Source of the DNA: an uncultured Bacilli bacterium
GTDB taxonomy: Bacteria > Bacillota_I > Bacilli_A > RF39 > UBA660
Assembly (NCBI GenBank): GCA_947630495.1
Contig: CANRHS010000006.1
Span: 1 to 33,350 of the forward strand
Length of the DNA stretch: 33,350 nt
Direction: 5' to 3'
A program made the position numbers and the translations under genes. The notes under the pieces were generated by a model. The model ran no database searches and was not told where the DNA came from. It was given only the letters and a program-made list of their open reading frames with translations. Every line of letters starts with the position of its first letter. Positions within the stretch are counted from its first letter, which is position 1. This document shows positions 1,796 to 26,043 of the stretch, piece by piece.

Positions 1796-2618
1796 AGATT
1801 ATGAGATAATTGATGCTAGTTTAGGCATGAAGTATGAAAGATGGGGTAATGTTTATTTATTAAGACCAGACCCTTTAGTTATGTGGGATAGTAAATTAGA
1901 AACAAGTAAGTTAGATGCTATTTACCATCGTAGTAATAAAGGTGGTGGATACTGGGAAAATAAAAGGAATATTAATACCTTTAATGTTAGTTATAAAGAT
2001 TTAAAGTTTAATTTAAAGCAAATGGGTTTTAAACATACAGGTTTATTTCCAGAACAAGCTATTAACTGGGACTTTTTAAGAAGTAAAATTAAAGATAAAA
2101 AGGATGTTAAAGTTTTAAATTTATTTGCTTATACGGGGGCTATGTCAGTTGCTGCTTTAAAAGAAGGAGCGAGTGTTGTTCATGTTGATTCATCAAGGGG
2201 AATGATTGAATGGGCTAAAGAGAATGTTAAATTAAATAATTTGGAAGATAGACCCATCAGATTTTTAGTAGATGACTGCATAAAGTTTGTTAAAAGAGAA
2301 ATTAGACGTGGTAATAATTATGATGTAATCGTGATGGATCCACCTAGTTATGGAAAAGGTGCAAATGGAGAAATCTGGTCTCTTGAAAAGGATTTATTTA
2401 ATTTAATCAATCTCTGTCAAGAATTGTTATCAGATACTCCTATTCTATTCATGGTTAATTCTTATTCAGGATTATCACCTCAAGTTTTAGAAAATATTTT
2501 AAAACTAACTAATAAAAATAAAAATGTAAATATTTATTCTTATGAAATAGGACTTCCAATTACTAAGAATGATTTAGTACTTCCATGTGGTATAACGGGA
2601 GTAATTGAATATGAATAA
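1773..2618 (+). CDS. Class I SAM-dependent methyltransferase (RlmI/PF10672-like)
   Basis: VLNLFAYTGAMSVAALKEGASVVHVDSSRGMIEWAKEN and VIMDPPSYGKG motifs. ATG at 1773 overlaps the end of the upstream ORF. Confidence 0.85.
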   Translation: MKVVKDFKDYEIIDASLGMKYERWGNVYLLRPDPLVMWDSKLETSKLDAIYHRSNKGGGYWENKRNINTFNVSYKDLKFNLKQMGFKHTGLFPEQAINWDFLRSKIKDKKDVKVLNLFAYTGAMSVAALKEGASVVHVDSSRGMIEWAKENVKLNNLEDRPIRFLVDDCIKFVKREIRRGNNYDVIVMDPPSYGKGANGEIWSLEKDLFNLINLCQELLSDTPILFMVNSYSGLSPQVLENILKLTNKNKNVNIYSYEIGLPITKNDLVLPCGITGVIEYE

Positions 2619-3273
2619 TTTAAATATTTTATATGAAGATAATCATCTAATAGTTGTTATTAAGCCAAAAGATATTTTAAGTCAAGCGGATATTACTAAT
2701 CAAGAAGATATGCTTACTATCTTAAAAGACTATATTAAAAATAAATATAATAAACCTGGTAATGTTTATCTTGGTTTAGTTCATAGACTAGATAAGAAAA
2801 CAAGTGGTATCATGGTTTTTGCTAGAACTTCCAAAGCTGCTAAGAGATTACAAGAATCAATTAAGAATAAAACTTTTAAGAAAACTTATTTAGCAGTAGT
2901 TCATGGAAAAGTTCCAAATGAAGGTACTTACATAGATTACCTAGAAAAGCAAGGAACAAGAAGCGTTATTTCAACTAAAGAAAAAGGAAAGTATGCAGAA
3001 CTTGATTTTAAAAGATTAGATTATAATGCAAAAGAAAATTTATCTTTAGTAGAAATAAATTTAAAAACAGGTCGTAATCATCAAATAAGACTTCAGTTTG
3101 CAAGTAGAAACTTTCCTTTATATGGTGATGATAAATATGGTAATGACCAAAATAAAACTTTAGGTCTATTTGCATATAAATTAGAATTTCCTCATCCAAC
3201 TACTAAAGAGATATTATCTTTTAAATCTATTCCAGATTATGAACCATTTAAAAACTTCAAGATTAAGCCTTGA
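2611..3273 (+). CDS. RluA-family pseudouridine synthase
   Basis: VHRLDKKTSGIMVFARTSKAA (HRLD motif), KTYLAVVHGKVP, LKTGRNHQIRLQFA. Overlaps the upstream stop. Confidence 0.92.
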   Translation: MNNLNILYEDNHLIVVIKPKDILSQADITNQEDMLTILKDYIKNKYNKPGNVYLGLVHRLDKKTSGIMVFARTSKAAKRLQESIKNKTFKKTYLAVVHGKVPNEGTYIDYLEKQGTRSVISTKEKGKYAELDFKRLDYNAKENLSLVEINLKTGRNHQIRLQFASRNFPLYGDDKYGNDQNKTLGLFAYKLEFPHPTTKEILSFKSIPDYEPFKNFKIKP

Positions 3274-3279
3274 AGTTTT
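3251..3279. terminator. Bidirectional terminator shared by convergent rluA-like and folD genes
   Basis: AAAACTTCAAG-attaagc-CTTGAAGTTTT, 11-bp perfect stem overlapping both stop codons. Confidence 0.8.
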
Positions 3280-4099
3280 ATTTACCTGCTTCATAAACAT
3301 TTTCCATTAAACTAATAACGGTCATTGGTCCAACTCCTCCAGGAACAGGAGTCATTAAACTAGCTTTATCTATGCAAGCAGCATCAACATCTCCATATAA
3401 TTTACCGTCTACTCTATTGATACCAACATCAATGATAATAGCATTATCTTTAACCATATCTTTAGTTATTAAACCTTTCTTGCCTACAGCAACGATTAAA
3501 ATATCAGCTTCCCTTGTATAAGATTTTAAATCTTTAGTTTTCGAATGACACAAAGTAACTGTTGCATTTCTATGAAGTAATAAATGGAAAAGTGGAAGAC
3601 CTACTAATTCACTTCTACCTACAATTACTATTCTCTTACCAATAACATCAATCTTATAAGAATCAAGTAAAGTCATTACTCCTTTAGGAGTACAAGGTAT
3701 TAAAGAATGTTCATTTTTAACTAACTTTAATAAACTATTATTAGTAAGACCATCTACATCTTTTAAAGAAGAAACGCTATTTAAGACCTTATCTTTATCT
3801 ATATTACTAGGAAGTGGTAGTTGAACTATTATTCCCGTTATACTAGAGTCTTTGTTTAATTCTTCTATTTCTTTGATCAAATCAGAGGTTGTAATAACAT
3901 CAAAGTGTAAGTTTTTAAAATTATAGCCAACTTCTTGAGCCATCTTTTCTTTTTGCCCTACATAAACTTTACTTGCTGGATTATCACCTACACTTATTAC
4001 TACTAAAGTTAACTTAGAAGATAACTTAGCAATCTTTTCTTTTAATAATTCCTTTCTTTCTAAACTAATCTTTTTACCATCAATTATTTTTTCATTCAT
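3278..4099 (-). CDS. folD: Bifunctional methylenetetrahydrofolate dehydrogenase/cyclohydrolase FolD
   Basis: VGDNPASKVYVGQKEK, GIIVQLPLP, KDVDGLT, IVGRSELVGLPLFHLLLHRNATVTLCHS, TPVPGGVGPMT. Confidence 0.97.
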   Translation of the reverse strand: MNEKIIDGKKISLERKELLKEKIAKLSSKLTLVVISVGDNPASKVYVGQKEKMAQEVGYNFKNLHFDVITTSDLIKEIEELNKDSSITGIIVQLPLPSNIDKDKVLNSVSSLKDVDGLTNNSLLKLVKNEHSLIPCTPKGVMTLLDSYKIDVIGKRIVIVGRSELVGLPLFHLLLHRNATVTLCHSKTKDLKSYTREADILIVAVGKKGLITKDMVKDNAIIIDVGINRVDGKLYGDVDAACIDKASLMTPVPGGVGPMTVISLMENVYEAGK

Positions 4100-4739
4100 A
4101 ATTACGCATTTCCTTTCTTAATAATTTATAATTTGGGATTATCTTCTCAACTAAACTCCAAAAACTCTTAGAGTGATCAGGATAAACTAAATGAGATAAT
4201 TCATGAGCTATTACATAATCTAAATATTTTATATCTTTTTTTATTAATTCTAAATTTAAAGTAACTCTTTTAGTTCTAACATTACATACTCCCCATCTTG
4301 TTTTCATACTTCTAATTGTTAAACTTGGATAAGGAATAGAAGTTGGAAAAATATTATAAATCTTATCTAATTCTTCTTGAAAGATAACTTTAGCTTGTTT
4401 TAATAACCATTTATTTATATCATAATCCTTATTTATTAAAAGTCTTGTTTCTCTTAAGATAGCGTCTTTTGTATTTAAATAAACGATATCATACTTCTTC
4501 CCTAGATACGTGAATGTTTCTTCTTGTTCTTTTCTTCTTGATTGTCTCTCGTACATTCTAATAATTGCTTTCTTATTATCTTCAATTAACTTTAATATTT
4601 CCTTATCTTTTGTATAATAATTAGTTGTAACATAGATATTTAAATCATCATTTACTCTTAAATAAGTATTTTTATTAGTTTTCTTTCTAACTATTATTAC
4701 TTCAAATTCTTGATTATCTATAACTACTTTCATATCCAT
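4092..4739 (-). CDS. YgjP-like M48-type metallopeptidase
   Basis: RSMKTRWGVCN...YVIAHELSHLVYPDHSKSFW, HExxH with downstream H. Confidence 0.85.
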   Translation of the reverse strand: MDMKVVIDNQEFEVIIVRKKTNKNTYLRVNDDLNIYVTTNYYTKDKEILKLIEDNKKAIIRMYERQSRRKEQEETFTYLGKKYDIVYLNTKDAILRETRLLINKDYDINKWLLKQAKVIFQEELDKIYNIFPTSIPYPSLTIRSMKTRWGVCNVRTKRVTLNLELIKKDIKYLDYVIAHELSHLVYPDHSKSFWSLVEKIIPNYKLLRKEMRNYE

Positions 4740-4763
4740 CCCTTTTAATTATAACATGAAAAG

Positions 4764-4787
4764 AAAAAAACAGGTAGAAAAACCTGT
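4764..4787 (-). terminator. Intrinsic terminator of the 4788-6047 gene
   Basis: ACAGGT(4770-4775)/ACCTGT(4782-4787) followed on the minus strand by a T7 run; directly after the stop codon. Confidence 0.75.
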
Positions 4788-6047
4788 CTATTTTACACAT
4801 TTTGTTCGATATCTATATTGGGTAATTTCACTTCCATCTAATTTTTGATATCCATCTGGCATATTACTTTCTAAGATATAATCTGTATAAATTAATTTTT
4901 TATCAATTGTTCTTGATTTATAATATGTAACATTTTTAGTTTCTGTAATCGTATCACGATATTTATAATATTTAACTGTTTTATATTTAGTAACATTATC
5001 ACATACTTGTTTTTGATAAGTACAAGTAACTTTTCCAATTCCTTTCGTTGTACATTTTAAAGCATTGTTATCCCAAGAAGTTCTATTAACTGTATAAGTT
5101 TCAGTACTACAACTCTTTGTAGAGTATGGTTCACTTTCACTCTTAGTTTTAATTTCTCGTCCTTCTTTTGATTTAGGTTTTTTAGTTGAATATTTACTCC
5201 AATCAGTTGTAGTTGTTATTTCAGTATCTCTATTTGTAACAGCAACTTCTAACTTATCATTTCCTGTAATTACTTCCGTTGTTTCAGGACTCCATTCTCC
5301 ATATACAATTTCTTCTTTATATCCTTTAACTAAAACTCTAGATTCTACTTCTAAATTTGGATCGCTTTTAATTTCGGTTGTCCATTCTCCAAATTCTTGA
5401 CATACAGGTACTGTTGGTACAGTAGTTGATTCATTATTTTCTGAATTATTATTACTATTATCATTGTTATCATTACTATCTGCTGGTTCTTCTTCATCTT
5501 CAGAAATATAATTTTCTCCATTACAAGTTAAACAATTAAAATCTAAATCATAATAATAAACTCTTTTTTCTTCATTACTAGGACAATTTAAATATATTTC
5601 TAACATGTAATCATTACTATTCTTAGTCATACTAATATATGATGTATTATAACCACATACTTTAGAATCATAATCTAATACTTCTGTAATTAATTTTTCA
5701 TCTATTAAACTTTTAACATTAATAGTTTTAGTTTCCCCTTTTTCAGTAGGAAGATTACCATCTATAAAGAAATATTTAATAGCAGTTTCTCTTAAAATAT
5801 CAATATTACTATCAAATACTAAACCACTATCAACTTTATTTTCTTCTTTCTTATCTTCTTTCTTAAAATTATTTTTTAAACTAAAGAATAAGAATATTAA
5901 TAAAGCAACTATTAATAAAATTAATATTATTTTTAATATTAAATTTTTATTAGAAAATGGTTTTCTTGGTTCTCCTTCTCCATTCTCATCATTTTCAACT
6001 TCATCTAAGTAAGCATCATAATCAAATTCATTTTCCTCAGTATACAT
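4788..6047 (-). CDS. Hypothetical single-TM surface protein with Asp/Asn/Ser-rich linker
   Basis: KNLILKIILILLIVALLIFLFFSL TM segment, acidic N-terminus, Lys/Thr/Tyr-rich extracellular region. Confidence 0.7.
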   Translation of the reverse strand: MYTEENEFDYDAYLDEVENDENGEGEPRKPFSNKNLILKIILILLIVALLIFLFFSLKNNFKKEDKKEENKVDSGLVFDSNIDILRETAIKYFFIDGNLPTEKGETKTINVKSLIDEKLITEVLDYDSKVCGYNTSYISMTKNSNDYMLEIYLNCPSNEEKRVYYYDLDFNCLTCNGENYISEDEEEPADSNDNNDNSNNNSENNESTTVPTVPVCQEFGEWTTEIKSDPNLEVESRVLVKGYKEEIVYGEWSPETTEVITGNDKLEVAVTNRDTEITTTTDWSKYSTKKPKSKEGREIKTKSESEPYSTKSCSTETYTVNRTSWDNNALKCTTKGIGKVTCTYQKQVCDNVTKYKTVKYYKYRDTITETKNVTYYKSRTIDKKLIYTDYILESNMPDGYQKLDGSEITQYRYRTKCVK

Positions 6048-9358: not shown

Positions 9359-12300
9359 TTAATTTCCTTTTGTATTTGAATCAGTTATAGTTATCTTTTC
9401 TAATTCCGAATAAGATTTTAAACCACTAATGGCTTTAGATGTACTAGTAATTCTTTCATCAGTTGGAACCATACTTCCGTCTTCTCCAGTTTCCATATTA
9501 TTTGCACGATATAGATTTGCTCTTATACTTGAAGAACCTTTTCGCATTGCTTCATATTCTTCCTTAGTCATTACAAACATCCAAGTTCCTTTAGCAACAC
9601 TATAAACATGTTTATCAGGTTCAACTTCCGCAAATAATAATTGATATCCATCATATACTTTTGTTTCATCAAAAGCATCATTGATAGTTACAATATTAAA
9701 TGCAGGGTCTCCGCGATATTCACCTTTAATGATTACTGAACCAGCTTTAATTGTTTCAGTTCCACTTGTATAATCTTTATCTAATACTCCAATTGTATCA
9801 AGTTCAACATTATCTCCAGGTGGAGCAATTACATCAAGTTCAAGTCCTGATAAGGTTGTCTTACCAACACTTTCAATCTTAATATAAGCGATATCATTAA
9901 ATGTATATAATTGATTATTAGAAACAGTTCCAGGTTTCATGAAGTAAACTAAGTCAGTATAGTTATTATCACTAGTTAAATTAAAGGTTCCTTCTTTAGC
10001 AACTTCCCAAGTAACTTTATCTTTACTTACAGAAATCTTATATTTACTAATTGTATTAGCATCCAACTTAGAATCAGTTGTTAAAGCTTGATATTTAATT
10101 CCACTTATCGAATAATTAGCATTTAAGTTAATAATTACATAAGCATTTCCATTATCAGTTGTTACATTAGTCTTATTTGGATCAAAAGTACTAATTTTTT
10201 CAAGTCCAACAAATCCTGTTTTAGAATCACCATCAATTAATTTATTAACTGATAACTTATCATAATCCATATCACTATCTTCAAGATCAACGATTTCTCC
10301 TTTTGCTTTAACGTTAGATTCAATACTAAATGTGTCTTTTGATGCCAATGCGCCATCATAAGAAATCTTAATTTCTTCTAACTTAACAGTATTTGTTTTA
10401 TTAAGTAGATAATCATAAGCAACTATTTGATATGCATAAGCTCGGTTATTTTCAGCACCTAACTTATCAACGTATGAAGACTCAGTTCCTTCAACAAAGG
10501 CAACGGCTACGCCATTTCGAATAATTTCATAACCAAGTATCTTTGATTTATCTCCTTCTATATCGAAGTTTAAAGTAACTTCTTTATTTTTATCATCTTT
10601 ATTAACTAAAGTTGCTGTTAGTTTAGTAGTATCAGAAATCTTTGTTCCTTGATTTAATCTAAATCTTCTGGCTTCATCATTTAAGTACCAAATTGGCCTC
10701 GTTTCTTTTTCCAAGTTTAGACTTGCAATTTCAGCCTTAACAGCATCTGTTGGTCTTAAGCCCCAAATTTCAAAGAATTCAGTTAAATCTTTGTTAGCAG
10801 CTTTACTTGCAAATAGGATAAGTAAATCATCAGATGAATATTTTTTAGTACTATTGTCAAATCTTCTGGCTTCTTTATTAATTCGAGCGAATATTGAATT
10901 TGTATCTTCAAATGTCTTAGTATCATCATAGGCTAAATGTAATTGCCAGTACATTCCAAGTTGAACAAATACATTTTGAGCACGTCCTGCTGTATGAGAT
11001 GTTACTTTCTCATAAATCTTTGGATAAATTCCACTTACTTCAAGTCTTGATTTATCTTTATCATTACTTGTTTGAGCAAGTAATGCAAATACGTTATTTG
11101 TAACCTCGGCTTTGGCTAAAGTTCCTTGATTTATTTGATGTCCTACTTCATGGCTAATTCCCCAACCAAAGTATCCGGTTTTATCGATAGTATTAGGTTC
11201 TGCTTGAACTAGTCCGGGAACGGAACCATATTCAATACCAATATGATATCCTCCGGCATACATAAATGCACCATAGAACATTCTCATATAACGGATATTA
11301 ATTCTAGCCTTTGGAGTAGCATCAGCAGTTTCCTTATTATCTAATCCTTTATGACGATAGAACATATCAATCATTTCATCAAAGGCTTCGGTTGATTTAT
11401 AAACTCTTGAAACTTTGTCATCGATGTTATCTAATTTACTATTAATTGCATCTAAAACTGCTGTTGCAGGAACTGAGAATAATCCTTGTCTTGTTACAAT
11501 CTCAGTTGAATTTTCAACACTTTCCGTTTGTTTGAAAGCATCTCCATAAGTTTTCTTAATTGAATTAATATGACTATCTAATTCATTTATATATGTTTTA
11601 ATTGCTGCTTTCTTCTCAGTCTCATCTTTTAAATAAGTAGTATCAAGAACAGGAATCTTAACTCCTCCACTTACTCTTATCTTAATTGGAACATCATTAG
11701 GTTTTGAAGTATAACGAATATATACACTTCCTCCTCTTTCCGCTTCAGCATCTCCAATCTTTGGAACATCAATTATATTTTGACCCACCTTTAAGTTACC
11801 AATTGCTTTATTCCAAGTTCCCGCTTCCGCATAAAATTGAGAGAATACCACTTGGATATTAGGATTTTGATTTTTAGAACCAACATAGATAGTTAACTTA
11901 TCTCCTGGTTTAGCAACTACTCCTAAAGGTTGATAATCATTAATAGTCATAGCAAATCCTGGATTTACATATGAATTTGAATAATTAGGATCAAGTGTAA
12001 TAACATCATCTAATTTCTTATCATTTAAGATATCTTCTGCATATTTTAAATCAGCAAGAATAACATCACGATAAGGGTTATATTCGTTGTTATCTTTAAT
12101 ATCTGCTCTATTTCTTAGTTCGTCAATCTTACTTTGATTAACACCATCAGCAAGTTCAAGTCTTAAATCATCAGTAAATAAGTTCGCAACATCATCAAGT
12201 AATGAATCATATTTATAAATCTTAACTTCATTAAATTCAATTGGGCCTGAGCCTGATGCCGTTAAACCAAATTGAATAGCATCAGCATTAATTGGTTCAT

Positions 12301-14464
12301 AAGTTCTAATTATATAGTAAGTACGATTATTTTCATCTTTCTTACTTGATAAAGTAGCTCCAATTGTTTTTCTAGTTGCTTGTTGATATGAATCTACACC
12401 TTCCCAATAATGAACTTTTAAGTCATTTTCATCACTCTTCTTTAAAGAAGCAGTATAAGAATCAGGAACTGTTAAAATAAATTCATTCATTTGATAAGAA
12501 TTATCTAAAACAATTATCGGTGCACCCATATTTACATAATGTGCATTCATTGTCCAATCAGTCTGTTTAAAATAGGTTTTAAAGTTATCATCAACGATAG
12601 AGAATTTATCTCCACCTTCCATTGTACCTAATGAATAAATAACATCTTTAATATGATTTGTAACACTCTTACCATCATCTTTAGTATTTATTAATTTATA
12701 TTTAGGTGTAATCGTTGGAGCAATTCCTAAAGTCTTACCACGAACAGTTTGACTCTTAGGTCCTTCTCCATTTGGATTATTACCAGTTATATAAACTTCA
12801 TATTCCGTTTCATCTTTTAAACCTTTTAAAGCATAACTATTTTTATCAATTAGAGAAGTTTTAGTCCATTTTTCAGTTCCTACCTCTCTATAATATACAT
12901 AATAATTTAATGTATCTTTCATATCTTTCCAGCTTAAGTTTAAAGCTGAATAATCAGGAGTTACATTAACCATATCAGGTGAAGGTGGTAAGCCATTAAA
13001 TTTAGGACTAGCTGTAACTTCGTCGCTAAAGCCACTCTTCCATTCTCCATTAACAGCTTGAACTGCTATTTTATAGGTTTTATAATTTTCTAAATCTTCA
13101 ATTGTAAAATTAGTAAATGTTGTTTGAAAAATAACATTATTTTTCTTATCTCCATTTATTCTAATTTCATATCCTGTAACATTAGTAACTGGATCAAAAG
13201 TTACAGTTAATTGTTCACTTACACTATCATCAACTTTTATATTTTTAGGAATATAGAAACCATCTGGTTCAGATAATTCCATCTTAACATTATTTAAGAA
13301 TTCTACTTTAGCAATATCTGCAAGTTTATTAGAACCTACCTTTGTAACTTTAATAGTTACTTTCTTAACGGCAATTTGACTTCCTAAATCAATGACAATA
13401 GCACCTTCTGTATCTTCATCAGTAAAGTACTCAATACCATCAACTTTCTTTATTTCTTTTGGTTTAACTTCTTTAGTTAAGGTTTTCCCATTTTCAACAT
13501 ATTCAACAACAAGACTCATTTCTTCAGGTTTATTTTCCCCAACTTGAACCTTAATTTCACTCATTTCAACAGGTTCATTATTATCTTTTGCTAAATCTAA
13601 AACTAAATTAATTGGATTTTTTTCACTTACTTCTTGATTATCCTTTGGCTTTAAAGTAACAACTTCACTAGAATCTGTAAAAATTGAGGATAATTCACCT
13701 TCCACTTCAACATCAGTTGGAACTTCAATTGAAACTTTACTACTATCCATAATTGGATTAGTATCTTCAATCTTAGCAGATTTCTTCGTACTATTAATAC
13801 TTGCTGTAATATAATTTAAATCAGCAATATCAGTTACACCATCAAAGTTTAAATCATAACTTCCTTTTCCTTTAACAGCATTAAGCATTAAATCTAAGTC
13901 TTTATCATCGACAATTTCATCATTATTAATATCCCCAATTGTAAACATACCATTTTCATTAGTAATACTAACTCTCTTTGAAAAGTCTTTTAAAGTAACA
14001 GGAACTAAATAATCAACAAAATTATTACCTACTAATCCTACTTTATATTCACCTACTTCAAGGCCATAGATATTAATAGAATAGTAAACAATTTTTCTAT
14101 TCTCGGCTGTTCCTTCAAGTGGTTTTCCATCTACTCCTCTTTTAGTAGCTGTTATTTTAATACCCTCTTGACTACCTAAAGTAACAACTTTTTCTTTTTT
14201 AATATTAGTAATTTCATCAAGGGCGAACTCAGCACTTTGATTCTTACTATTTTTAATTTGATATTTGATACCATTGTCTACATTTTCTTCAATTGGTAAA
14301 ACAAGTTCTACCTCAAGTTCAATGTCTCCAGTACCCTTAAATTCTTCATTACTTATTACTTTTGGTTCAGTTTCAATTGCTGAAACATTCATAAATGGTG
14401 TTACATAATTAAATACCATAACAACTAGTAAAAATAATGAAACAATTTTTCTAAACTTCTTCAT
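9359..14464 (-). CDS. Large secreted M60-like (enhancin/mucinase-type) metallopeptidase with dockerin, FN3-like and discoidin-like modules
   Basis: Signal peptide; dockerin-like GDINNDEIVDDKDLDLMLNAVKGKGSYDLNFDGVTDIADLNYI; FN3-like segments; YFGWGISHEVGHQINQGTLAKAEVTNNVFALL (HExxH...E); further C-terminal beta-sandwich regions. Confidence 0.85.
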   Translation of the reverse strand: MKKFRKIVSLFLLVVMVFNYVTPFMNVSAIETEPKVISNEEFKGTGDIELEVELVLPIEENVDNGIKYQIKNSKNQSAEFALDEITNIKKEKVVTLGSQEGIKITATKRGVDGKPLEGTAENRKIVYYSINIYGLEVGEYKVGLVGNNFVDYLVPVTLKDFSKRVSITNENGMFTIGDINNDEIVDDKDLDLMLNAVKGKGSYDLNFDGVTDIADLNYITASINSTKKSAKIEDTNPIMDSSKVSIEVPTDVEVEGELSSIFTDSSEVVTLKPKDNQEVSEKNPINLVLDLAKDNNEPVEMSEIKVQVGENKPEEMSLVVEYVENGKTLTKEVKPKEIKKVDGIEYFTDEDTEGAIVIDLGSQIAVKKVTIKVTKVGSNKLADIAKVEFLNNVKMELSEPDGFYIPKNIKVDDSVSEQLTVTFDPVTNVTGYEIRINGDKKNNVIFQTTFTNFTIEDLENYKTYKIAVQAVNGEWKSGFSDEVTASPKFNGLPPSPDMVNVTPDYSALNLSWKDMKDTLNYYVYYREVGTEKWTKTSLIDKNSYALKGLKDETEYEVYITGNNPNGEGPKSQTVRGKTLGIAPTITPKYKLINTKDDGKSVTNHIKDVIYSLGTMEGGDKFSIVDDNFKTYFKQTDWTMNAHYVNMGAPIIVLDNSYQMNEFILTVPDSYTASLKKSDENDLKVHYWEGVDSYQQATRKTIGATLSSKKDENNRTYYIIRTYEPINADAIQFGLTASGSGPIEFNEVKIYKYDSLLDDVANLFTDDLRLELADGVNQSKIDELRNRADIKDNNEYNPYRDVILADLKYAEDILNDKKLDDVITLDPNYSNSYVNPGFAMTINDYQPLGVVAKPGDKLTIYVGSKNQNPNIQVVFSQFYAEAGTWNKAIGNLKVGQNIIDVPKIGDAEAERGGSVYIRYTSKPNDVPIKIRVSGGVKIPVLDTTYLKDETEKKAAIKTYINELDSHINSIKKTYGDAFKQTESVENSTEIVTRQGLFSVPATAVLDAINSKLDNIDDKVSRVYKSTEAFDEMIDMFYRHKGLDNKETADATPKARINIRYMRMFYGAFMYAGGYHIGIEYGSVPGLVQAEPNTIDKTGYFGWGISHEVGHQINQGTLAKAEVTNNVFALLAQTSNDKDKSRLEVSGIYPKIYEKVTSHTAGRAQNVFVQLGMYWQLHLAYDDTKTFEDTNSIFARINKEARRFDNSTKKYSSDDLLILFASKAANKDLTEFFEIWGLRPTDAVKAEIASLNLEKETRPIWYLNDEARRFRLNQGTKISDTTKLTATLVNKDDKNKEVTLNFDIEGDKSKILGYEIIRNGVAVAFVEGTESSYVDKLGAENNRAYAYQIVAYDYLLNKTNTVKLEEIKISYDGALASKDTFSIESNVKAKGEIVDLEDSDMDYDKLSVNKLIDGDSKTGFVGLEKISTFDPNKTNVTTDNGNAYVIINLNANYSISGIKYQALTTDSKLDANTISKYKISVSKDKVTWEVAKEGTFNLTSDNNYTDLVYFMKPGTVSNNQLYTFNDIAYIKIESVGKTTLSGLELDVIAPPGDNVELDTIGVLDKDYTSGTETIKAGSVIIKGEYRGDPAFNIVTINDAFDETKVYDGYQLLFAEVEPDKHVYSVAKGTWMFVMTKEEYEAMRKGSSSIRANLYRANNMETGEDGSMVPTDERITSTSKAISGLKSYSELEKITITDSNTKGN

Positions 14465-24097: not shown

Positions 24098-24175
24098 AAC
24101 CTCCTAGGACTAATCCTAATTAAATTATAAAGTATTTTTCTAATTAAGTCTATATTTTTTAACTATTATTTAAAA

Positions 24176-24210
24176 AAACTGATAAAATAATTTAATATTT
24201 TTATCAGTTT
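24176..24210 (-). terminator. Terminator downstream of the 24277-25956 gene
   Basis: AAACTGATAAAA/TTTTATCAGTTT 12-bp stem, T-run on the minus strand. Confidence 0.75.
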
Positions 24211-24246
24211 CTAGATTAATATTTATAATTTGTATCAAGTTAGCCT

Positions 24247-24276
24247 GTCCCTCTCGGACTTCGCCCTCGTGGGGAC
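24247..24276 (-). repeat. GC-rich stem-loop directly after the stop codon of the SipW-type protein
   Basis: Minus strand GTCCC-CACGAGGGCGAAGTCCGAGA-GGGAC, with internal GGGC-GAA-GTCC pairing. Confidence 0.6.
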
Positions 24277-25956
24277 TCAGGATACTAGGGCGTATGGTGT
24301 CAAACTTGTTCCATCTCCATTATCAATTATTGCGGTAGATTTGAGATAAAGGGCTGGCCGCACGCCGCCGGTGAGATTCGCACCGACGTAGCCAACGTCG
24401 CCGTCACTATTCCAGCCAGCGACACGGCCAGAGTCGAAGGAGGAGGGCGACAAGAACCACTCATAATTATCATGATTAGCAGAAGTTAACCAACTGGTTT
24501 CATAAGCTTCGTTGTAATACTCTCCTAAAGTAGTTTCATTCCAATAAGTACTATCGGCACTAAAACCATAATCTGATGGATACATTAAAGCAACACTACC
24601 TGACCAATTGGCTTGATTTCCACTCCAGATATCTCCTCCACTACATTCTTCATATTCTTCTTCAACCATACTACAACTTGCACTTTCTCTTTCATGTTCA
24701 TACGATAATGCTGAAGTATCTGTATTATAATTAAAGTTTCCTAAGTAATATTTTGTCTCAGCAATCATATTTTTGGCATTATCATATAAGGAATTTAAAT
24801 ATCCTTTATCTTGCATTTCATCACCTTTTGAATTTAGCCAATACTGAAGTCCTGCTGTTGTCCAGTCATTATAATAATTATCGTCATTCCAATTCCAATA
24901 AGCACTATTTTCTGAATAATCTTTCATAAATTTAGCATTACTTAAAGGTAATACTTTATACGATGAAAAATTATTAAGTTTTCCTGATGTCAATTCACCT
25001 TTTATATAATAATTTTTACCACCTACAACATAAGTTTCAGGAAATACTCCTGTTAATACTTCATTTCTTACTATTTTTAAATGTTCTTCATTATTTTCAT
25101 CTTTAAATACTCCAATTATTCTCCAAGTCTCACAATTATCTCCATTTTGTTCCATATTATCTTGACAATTGAAATATACATAATTATTTACATTTGTTCC
25201 AGAATATCGATATTCTCTTATATTACTACTTTCTTGAGTTACTTTCGTATTTGTATTTGTTACTCCTACTACTCCTCCAGTTTGACCTAATGTTTCTTTA
25301 ACTATTTCAGTTCCTAAAGGTTTATCTAATTCTTTAGGTGTAAAGTCTCCATTTACAGATACCTTGACACTTGCAAATGCATCTGTATTCCAAGTAGTCA
25401 TATCCATATCTGATGAACTTGCATCATCTCCGGCTCCTAAGTGCATTTCACTTGATACCCACATATATAACTTATAAGTTATCTTAGTATCTGTTCTTGT
25501 ATTTGCTGCAATGGTATTTACCCAGATTTTTTTACCATTTTCAAAATCAGAATACTTTCCAGCCTTTATTACTTCAGTTTCTTCTCCTCCTGGTAATTGT
25601 TCAGTCAATCTAAATCTTATGAACTTATCTGGTATTCTTGTATGTCTATTCTCTGCTTCTTCTCCCCAACTAATTACTATTTCATACCAAATTGGTTTAC
25701 TATAAGTATTCTTTCCTTCAATTGTAAACTCAAATACTTGACTTGGGTCATATGTACTTGTTGGCATAGCATTTTGAATATTTATAGTATTACTTGATTC
25801 AGTATACTTCATATAAATTTCGCCTGCAACCAACTGTTGGTTTTCACCAACCTTAAAATAATTCCATAATGAATAGGTTGCTCCTATTGTTAAAGTTAAT
25901 ACTAATAGAATTGCTCCTATTACTATTATTTTCTTTTCCTTGGCATATTTTTCCAT
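24277..25956 (-). CDS. SipW-type signal-anchored surface protein with C-terminal GVRPALYL (FGE/C-lectin-like) domain
   Basis: KKIIVIGAILLVLTLTIGATYSLWNYFKVG...LVAGEIYMKYTES; C-terminal WFLSPSSFDSGRVAGWNSDGDVGYVGANLTGGVRPALYLKS. ATG at 25956 follows AGGAGG; the listed ORF extends to 26016. Confidence 0.75.
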   Translation of the reverse strand: MEKYAKEKKIIVIGAILLVLTLTIGATYSLWNYFKVGENQQLVAGEIYMKYTESSNTINIQNAMPTSTYDPSQVFEFTIEGKNTYSKPIWYEIVISWGEEAENRHTRIPDKFIRFRLTEQLPGGEETEVIKAGKYSDFENGKKIWVNTIAANTRTDTKITYKLYMWVSSEMHLGAGDDASSSDMDMTTWNTDAFASVKVSVNGDFTPKELDKPLGTEIVKETLGQTGGVVGVTNTNTKVTQESSNIREYRYSGTNVNNYVYFNCQDNMEQNGDNCETWRIIGVFKDENNEEHLKIVRNEVLTGVFPETYVVGGKNYYIKGELTSGKLNNFSSYKVLPLSNAKFMKDYSENSAYWNWNDDNYYNDWTTAGLQYWLNSKGDEMQDKGYLNSLYDNAKNMIAETKYYLGNFNYNTDTSALSYEHERESASCSMVEEEYEECSGGDIWSGNQANWSGSVALMYPSDYGFSADSTYWNETTLGEYYNEAYETSWLTSANHDNYEWFLSPSSFDSGRVAGWNSDGDVGYVGANLTGGVRPALYLKSTAIIDNGDGTSLTPYALVS

Positions 25957-26043
25957 TTCTTTTTTCCTCCTCTTCTTGGAAAATCTTCCCTTTATTCTAA
26001 TAATATTATAAGACAAATTCTTGGACTTTTCAAGTCAATTTTT

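Follow-up and report, generated by a model that had tools for sequence, protein, structure and literature searches.

A G+C-rich variable repeat in a surface-protein gene of an uncultured Bacilli bacterium, very probably rewritten in trans by a diversity-generating retroelement

The DNA analysed here, called the window, is a stretch of 33,350 nucleotides that forms contig C6 in a 1.43 Mb assembly of an uncultured Bacilli bacterium (G000; 138 contigs, 77% complete). We consider it very probable that positions 24346-24456 are the variable repeat (VR) of a target of a diversity-generating retroelement (DGR), and that this repeat is rewritten in trans. Reverse transcriptase (RT), Avd, template repeats (TRs), many paralogous VRs and adenine-directed divergence are all present in the genome, and the reading of an earlier note, which had seen a DGR variable region in the letters of the window, was thus essentially right.

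The cassette and its gene

The features of the region are the following:

24277-25956, minus strand: target gene for a SipW/TasA-like surface protein with a C-terminal DUF6273-like domain (from reading the sequence; DUF6273 from relatives)
24346-24456, minus strand: DGR variable repeat, 37 codons, 63% G+C, placed in register with the template repeats
24346-24360, minus strand: IMH-like 3' end of the VR, CGGCCAGCCCTTTAT, common to TR 3' ends
24280-24345, minus strand: constant C-terminal tail LKSTAIIDNGDGTSLTPYALVS after the VR, 22 ordinary codons and then the stop
24247-24276, minus strand: G+C-rich imperfect hairpin (GTCCC...GGGAC), a putative DGR target-recognition hairpin, in the same position as the covarying hairpin of the clade
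24172-24212, minus strand: AT-rich, intrinsic-terminator-like hairpin AAACTGATAAAA...TTTTATCAGTTTTTTT, read directly

The window as a whole has 26.5% G+C. When all of it was scanned in stretches of 111 bp, the maximum was 65.8%, starting at 24350, while stretches outside the cassette region reached at most 45.9% (mean 26.4%, sd 6.5). The composition profile gives 61.5% for 24340-24456, which confirms the sharp jump towards the end of the protein that had been described from the sequence, and the NNC/NNT codons quoted with it do stand in frame on the minus strand. The 37 codons of the cassette are, however, not the last ones of the gene: the VR lies in the 3' part of the ORF with 22 codons between it and the stop, and is therefore near the C terminus. 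A second G+C-rich element follows directly past the stop codon (24247-24276). Since AT-rich paralogues of the same domain exist in the same genome (contigs C50 and C18; G+C 0.32-0.36), the domain itself has no need for high G+C.

The target probably starts at the ATG at 25956, judging from a GGAGG RBS upstream, although the listed ORF begins with TTG at 26016, and its N terminus has a SipW/TasA-like hydrophobic segment. The C-terminal domain is probably DUF6273-like, to judge by relatives: 9 of 23 aligned relatives match DUF6273 at E<=0.1 (best 8.9e-5), while the domain profile search gave no DUF6273 match at this threshold for the window protein itself. Profile searches of the PDB with the domain gave nothing significant. 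An AlphaFold model of the domain (pLDDT 79.7) matches viral DUF6273 proteins in a structure search, and a single PDB entry matches it with E<=0.001 (E 2.3e-7), namely part of the IgA peptidase of Thomasclavelia ramosa. The C-terminal domain of Legionella Lcl matches weakly (E 0.62), as do several C-type lectin domains, so that the C-type-lectin-like scaffold proposed earlier gains slight backing from structure, while the sequences of the relatives point to a DUF6273-like domain. A search of IMG/VR with the window protein found no close relative; RTs found there were only distant (25-30% identity), with two pattern matches as well.

Many loci of the genome repeat the N-terminal half of the window protein, and only some of the genes concerned have a VR. 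Elsewhere in the window (9359-14464, minus strand) lies a gene for a secreted protein of 1701 aa with an HEVGHQ motif, which we take to be perhaps an M60-type peptidase.

DGR enzymes and template repeats in the genome

A search of the genome contigs found five RVT_1 loci. Three RTs, on contigs C8, C114 and C52, carry the motif LGAMTSQ, which is of the LGxxxSQ type; (I/V/L)GxxxSQ in domain 4 is described as a criterion for RTs of the DGR clade (PMC3521204). Thus the search for a DGR RT that the earlier note had proposed yielded three DGR-type enzymes, all on contigs other than that of the window. The C52 RT has two in-frame stops. Avd homologues adjoin the C8 and C114 RTs, the one on C8 being under the curated cut-off. 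Matches of Avd homologues were obtained to Pfam bAvd (9.9e-13), NCBIfam DivGenRetAVD (1.1e-13) and the PHROG 'Avd protein of DGR' (2e-17). Template repeats composed of AAC/AAT codons and reading SPSSNNSNNVANWNSDGNVNNNN... adjoin the RTs on C8, C114 and C52, and in total there are five TR loci in the genome. The 3' end of the C114 template is CGCCCAGCCCTTTAT, and that of the template in the related genome G013 is CGGCCAGCCCTTTAT. With RTs, Avd and TRs all located on other contigs, the suggestion that the retroelement would act in trans is borne out.

Two RTs of other kinds were also noted. The one on C125 (L030:1943-3193) has QGGVLSP, is group-II-intron-like and served as a contrast, and the one on C40 (L029:575-1525) matches an Ec107-like retron RT (E 6e-119). 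On contig C1 (L229, G000:C1:24000-33000, about 2070-5645) an insert of ~3.5 kb interrupts a template repeat. The insert has related sequence at both ends and codes for three proteins that look, by eye, like tyrosine recombinases; the 5' half of the interrupted TR comes after a target gene. In G013 the operon order is target-Avd-TR-ORF-Avd-like-RT-ORF. Several genomes retain two small ORFs in their DGR operons (L116:2113-2481 and 3873-4232), and for these ORFs Pfam, NCBIfam, PHROGs and PDB gave no convincing family; one of them may resemble a MutS-like DGR accessory.

Paralogous variable repeats

Searches of the genome gave 33 matches to the cassette DNA and 37 to the C-terminal protein region, self included in both and with the weakest ones marginal. 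At least 13 complete G+C-rich VRs, that of the window included, are found in paralogous targets on separate contigs, with G+C of 0.48-0.63 in the 13 complete VRs. When their codons are aligned, some positions are constant and others are NNC/NNT. In cis, the VR on C8 departs from the TR of the same contig at 18/33 adenine sites and at 1/72 other sites. The remote VRs on C55 (15/33 and 2/72, against the C8 TR) and C49 (18/33 and 3/72, against the C114 TR) are clean trans cases. At the level of the system, templates with nearly A-only mismatches do exist, as the differences in these three pairs fall almost only at TR adenines, and the paralogous cassettes, once aligned as had been suggested, vary at TR adenines as well.

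These comparisons bear on two explanations that do without a mutagenic retroelement. One is that a G+C-rich domain was imported by simple horizontal transfer, as the sharp local jump in G+C might suggest. The flanking domain is native and AT-rich, however, and 12 further paralogues have the same patch with their differences at TR adenines, a bias that transfer alone does not predict; we find import hardly credible. The other is a shuffling of cassettes among VR copies by gene conversion, as in pilin-like antigenic variation. VR tails and hairpins are common to paralogues in blocks, and in the VR alignment the C88 copy seems to be a mosaic between TR types; but the differences lie where a non-coding template has its adenines, and the genome possesses both a dedicated RT and Avd. 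Ordinary conversion may contribute, while it leaves the base specificity unexplained, and as the whole explanation it is very unlikely. On neither account would differences be expected at template adenines, and we rejected both for that reason.

The template of the window repeat

For the window VR the nearest TR is that of C114, which gave the best match among the available TRs. Over the first 105 nt the two differ at 22 of 33 adenine sites and at 11 of 72 non-adenine sites (Fisher p = 9e-8 over 111 nt). Taken together, the VRs of the window, C88 and C42 are variable at 26/33 TR-adenine sites and at 11/72 others (p = 4e-10), and they have non-adenine markers in common (GACGGCnnCGTTGGC...GCG). 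This suggests, from the sequences, that the three derive from a common TR that is absent from the assembly. A pattern search for the inferred TR found nothing in the 77%-complete genome itself, and among the sampled members of the genus only the C114 TR. As the assembly lacks the exact TR of the window VR, we infer the A-only rule for this VR, and the 11 non-A differences from the C114 TR would be explained solely by such a missing TR.

Hairpins past the stop codon

The role of the post-stop hairpin in DGR target recognition is putative. In BPP-1, a hairpin after the VR is described as needed for efficient homing, and phage-type DGR hairpins are given with a stem of 7-10 bp, a 4-nt GRNA loop and a distance of 4-34 bp from the VR (PMC3240598). 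In the window hairpin 8 of 11 pairs form; it has G.A mismatches, and as DNA its fold does not stand out (z -1.4). The G+C-rich element is not the terminator, because beyond it stands a second, AT-rich hairpin that is terminator-like.

In cis targets of the clade a hairpin right behind the stop is usual. A search for bulged hairpins with shuffled controls was used, a simple search for perfect hairpins having missed the bulged forms; the hairpin beats its shuffled control in 41 of 42 loci, with a median score of 28 compared with 14. In the nearer part of the clade the geometry is ~6 bp, a bulge of 1-2 nt, 5 bp and a loop of mostly 7-8 nt, and there are two to four Watson-Crick pair types per position. 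As the arms come from a pairing search they pair by construction, and the evidence lies in the constant place combined with the changing sequence. At some more distant loci the hairpins may instead be ordinary terminators. An imperfect hairpin of the type seen in the window also stands beside the cis VR-TR pair of G013, which differs at 19/33 A sites and 1/78 others.

These data also bear on the notion that the window VR is a relic, formerly rewritten by a DGR and now frozen, with its TR lost or diverged. Such a relic would qualify our explanation and does not exclude it. A TR with the non-A markers of the window is missing from the assembly and the sampled relatives, the window hairpin is imperfect, and another TR of the genome is broken by a mobile element. 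Against this, the assembly, which is 77% complete, has breaks at these repeats, the window ORF is intact, the same non-A markers in the C88 and C42 VRs indicate that the unseen TR served several targets, and the imperfect hairpin type recurs beside the G013 pair. A frozen relic appears rather unlikely, though less so than the two alternatives above. Of the three possibilities once offered, action in trans is supported, a relic is not needed but keeps some probability for this copy, whose exact TR is missing from the 77%-complete assembly, and import disagrees with differences that track TR adenines.

DGRs across the clade

Of the 17 genomes of the genus 14 have RT homologues, among them all eight good ones. 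From GTDB genomes 80 RT loci were kept, almost all of them in uncultured Bacilli-type assemblies and many, by their titles, from rabbit, ruminant or other gut samples. TR-VR pairs were detected by a seeded scan, which was repeated with T in place of A as a control. A cis pair passing the adenine-bias filter was found at 42 of the 80 loci, most with 0 non-A mismatches; a pair of the best type in relatives differs at 22/32 A sites and 0/58 others. The pooled figures, 674/1319 A sites and 28/2461 others, are descriptive only and inflated, because the pairs were selected in part for A bias. At the TR adenines of the pooled pairs the spectrum is A>G 321, A>T 244 and A>C 109. Among the pairs listed, the T-control gave only two secondary matches, both of them pairs already found, with the roles of TR and VR exchanged.

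Searched over the 17 genus genomes, a covariance model built on the TR 3' flank found 21 TR loci in nine of them (the G009 locus being weak). Within the sequence examined, some of these TRs stand without an RT: one on C131 of the own genome, between a target and a U32-type peptidase gene (by eye), one on G010 C48 behind a target, and two in tandem on G014 C28. Their scores of 132-135 bits are near those of RT-linked TRs. In G014 one TR best matches the remote VRs on C33 and C104, and another the VR on C75.

Discussion

The best explanation may be set out as follows. A template RNA, consisting of the TR and its conserved 3' flank, would be made elsewhere in the genome, and the DGR reverse transcriptase, together with Avd, would copy it with errors at template adenines. 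The cDNA would then replace the homologous VR; the 3' end that TR and VR share, CCAGCCCTTTAT, and the hairpin just past the stop would direct it there, and ligand-contact residues on the DUF6273-like surface protein would be randomised. The NNC/NNT codons of the VR follow from the AAC/AAT codons of the TR, and the raised G+C of the VR from replacement of A by G, C or T. In this scheme current DGR activity, the exact TR of the window VR, a role for the hairpin and the ligand of the protein are inferred.

The system resembles the mtd/avd/brt DGR of Bordetella phage BPP-1 in its RT, Avd, TR and VR at the target 3' end, in adenine-directed substitutions, in a shared TR/VR 3' end and in a hairpin after the target gene. 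It differs in being cellular, with target and VR remote from RT and TR, in RTs that are all <60% identical to those in phage records, Bordetella phages included, and in the bulged stem (~6+5 bp) and 7-8 nt loop of a hairpin placed past the stop codon. It shares with the chromosomal DGR of Treponema denticola that remote paralogous targets are served from a separate core locus. For T. denticola two to seven targets per isolate are described (PMC4891356), whereas here a single incomplete genome has five TR loci and 13 or more complete VRs, and its VRs match different TRs. The DGRs of Thiohalocapsa PB-PSB1, described as nine with 15 targets and 21 VRs (PMC10907252), are likewise spread over many loci, some diversified in trans and with transposons in the loci; their targets are putative conflict-system sensors, unlike the SipW-type surface proteins with a DUF6273-like domain found here. 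We count the window system among the known DGRs because multi-target, remote, trans-acting DGRs have already been described (T. denticola, PMC4891356; cyanobacteria, PMC7517822; Thiohalocapsa, PMC10907252), and surveys cover such systems (PMC6642488, PMC3521204).

A dozen or more related proteins seem to be served by the DGR enzyme and templates of the genome. In the genus, the TRs that stand without an RT and the TR-VR matches of G014 suggest, in assemblies that are fragmented, a shared enzyme together with several dedicated templates. It is tempting to go further and propose a distributed network, in which few RTs serve several TRs, some RT-less, each with its own remote hairpin-marked surface-protein genes; we hold this tentatively, as a reading nearly as probable as its negation. 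Candidates for novelty are the hairpin type and the templates that lack an RT, neither having been met in the descriptions of DGRs drawn on here.

Surveys restricted to the RT neighbourhood would miss most of these targets, and Roux et al. state that their approach would not detect remote targets (PMC8144416). On single contigs, such targets may in practice be recognised by a short NNC/NNT island of high G+C within an AT-rich gene, and the RT-less template loci would allow a direct test of TR-to-target specificity. Overall, it seems that more than 12 surface proteins are randomised together in a small-genome gut Bacilli lineage, which is known here only through uncultured assemblies.
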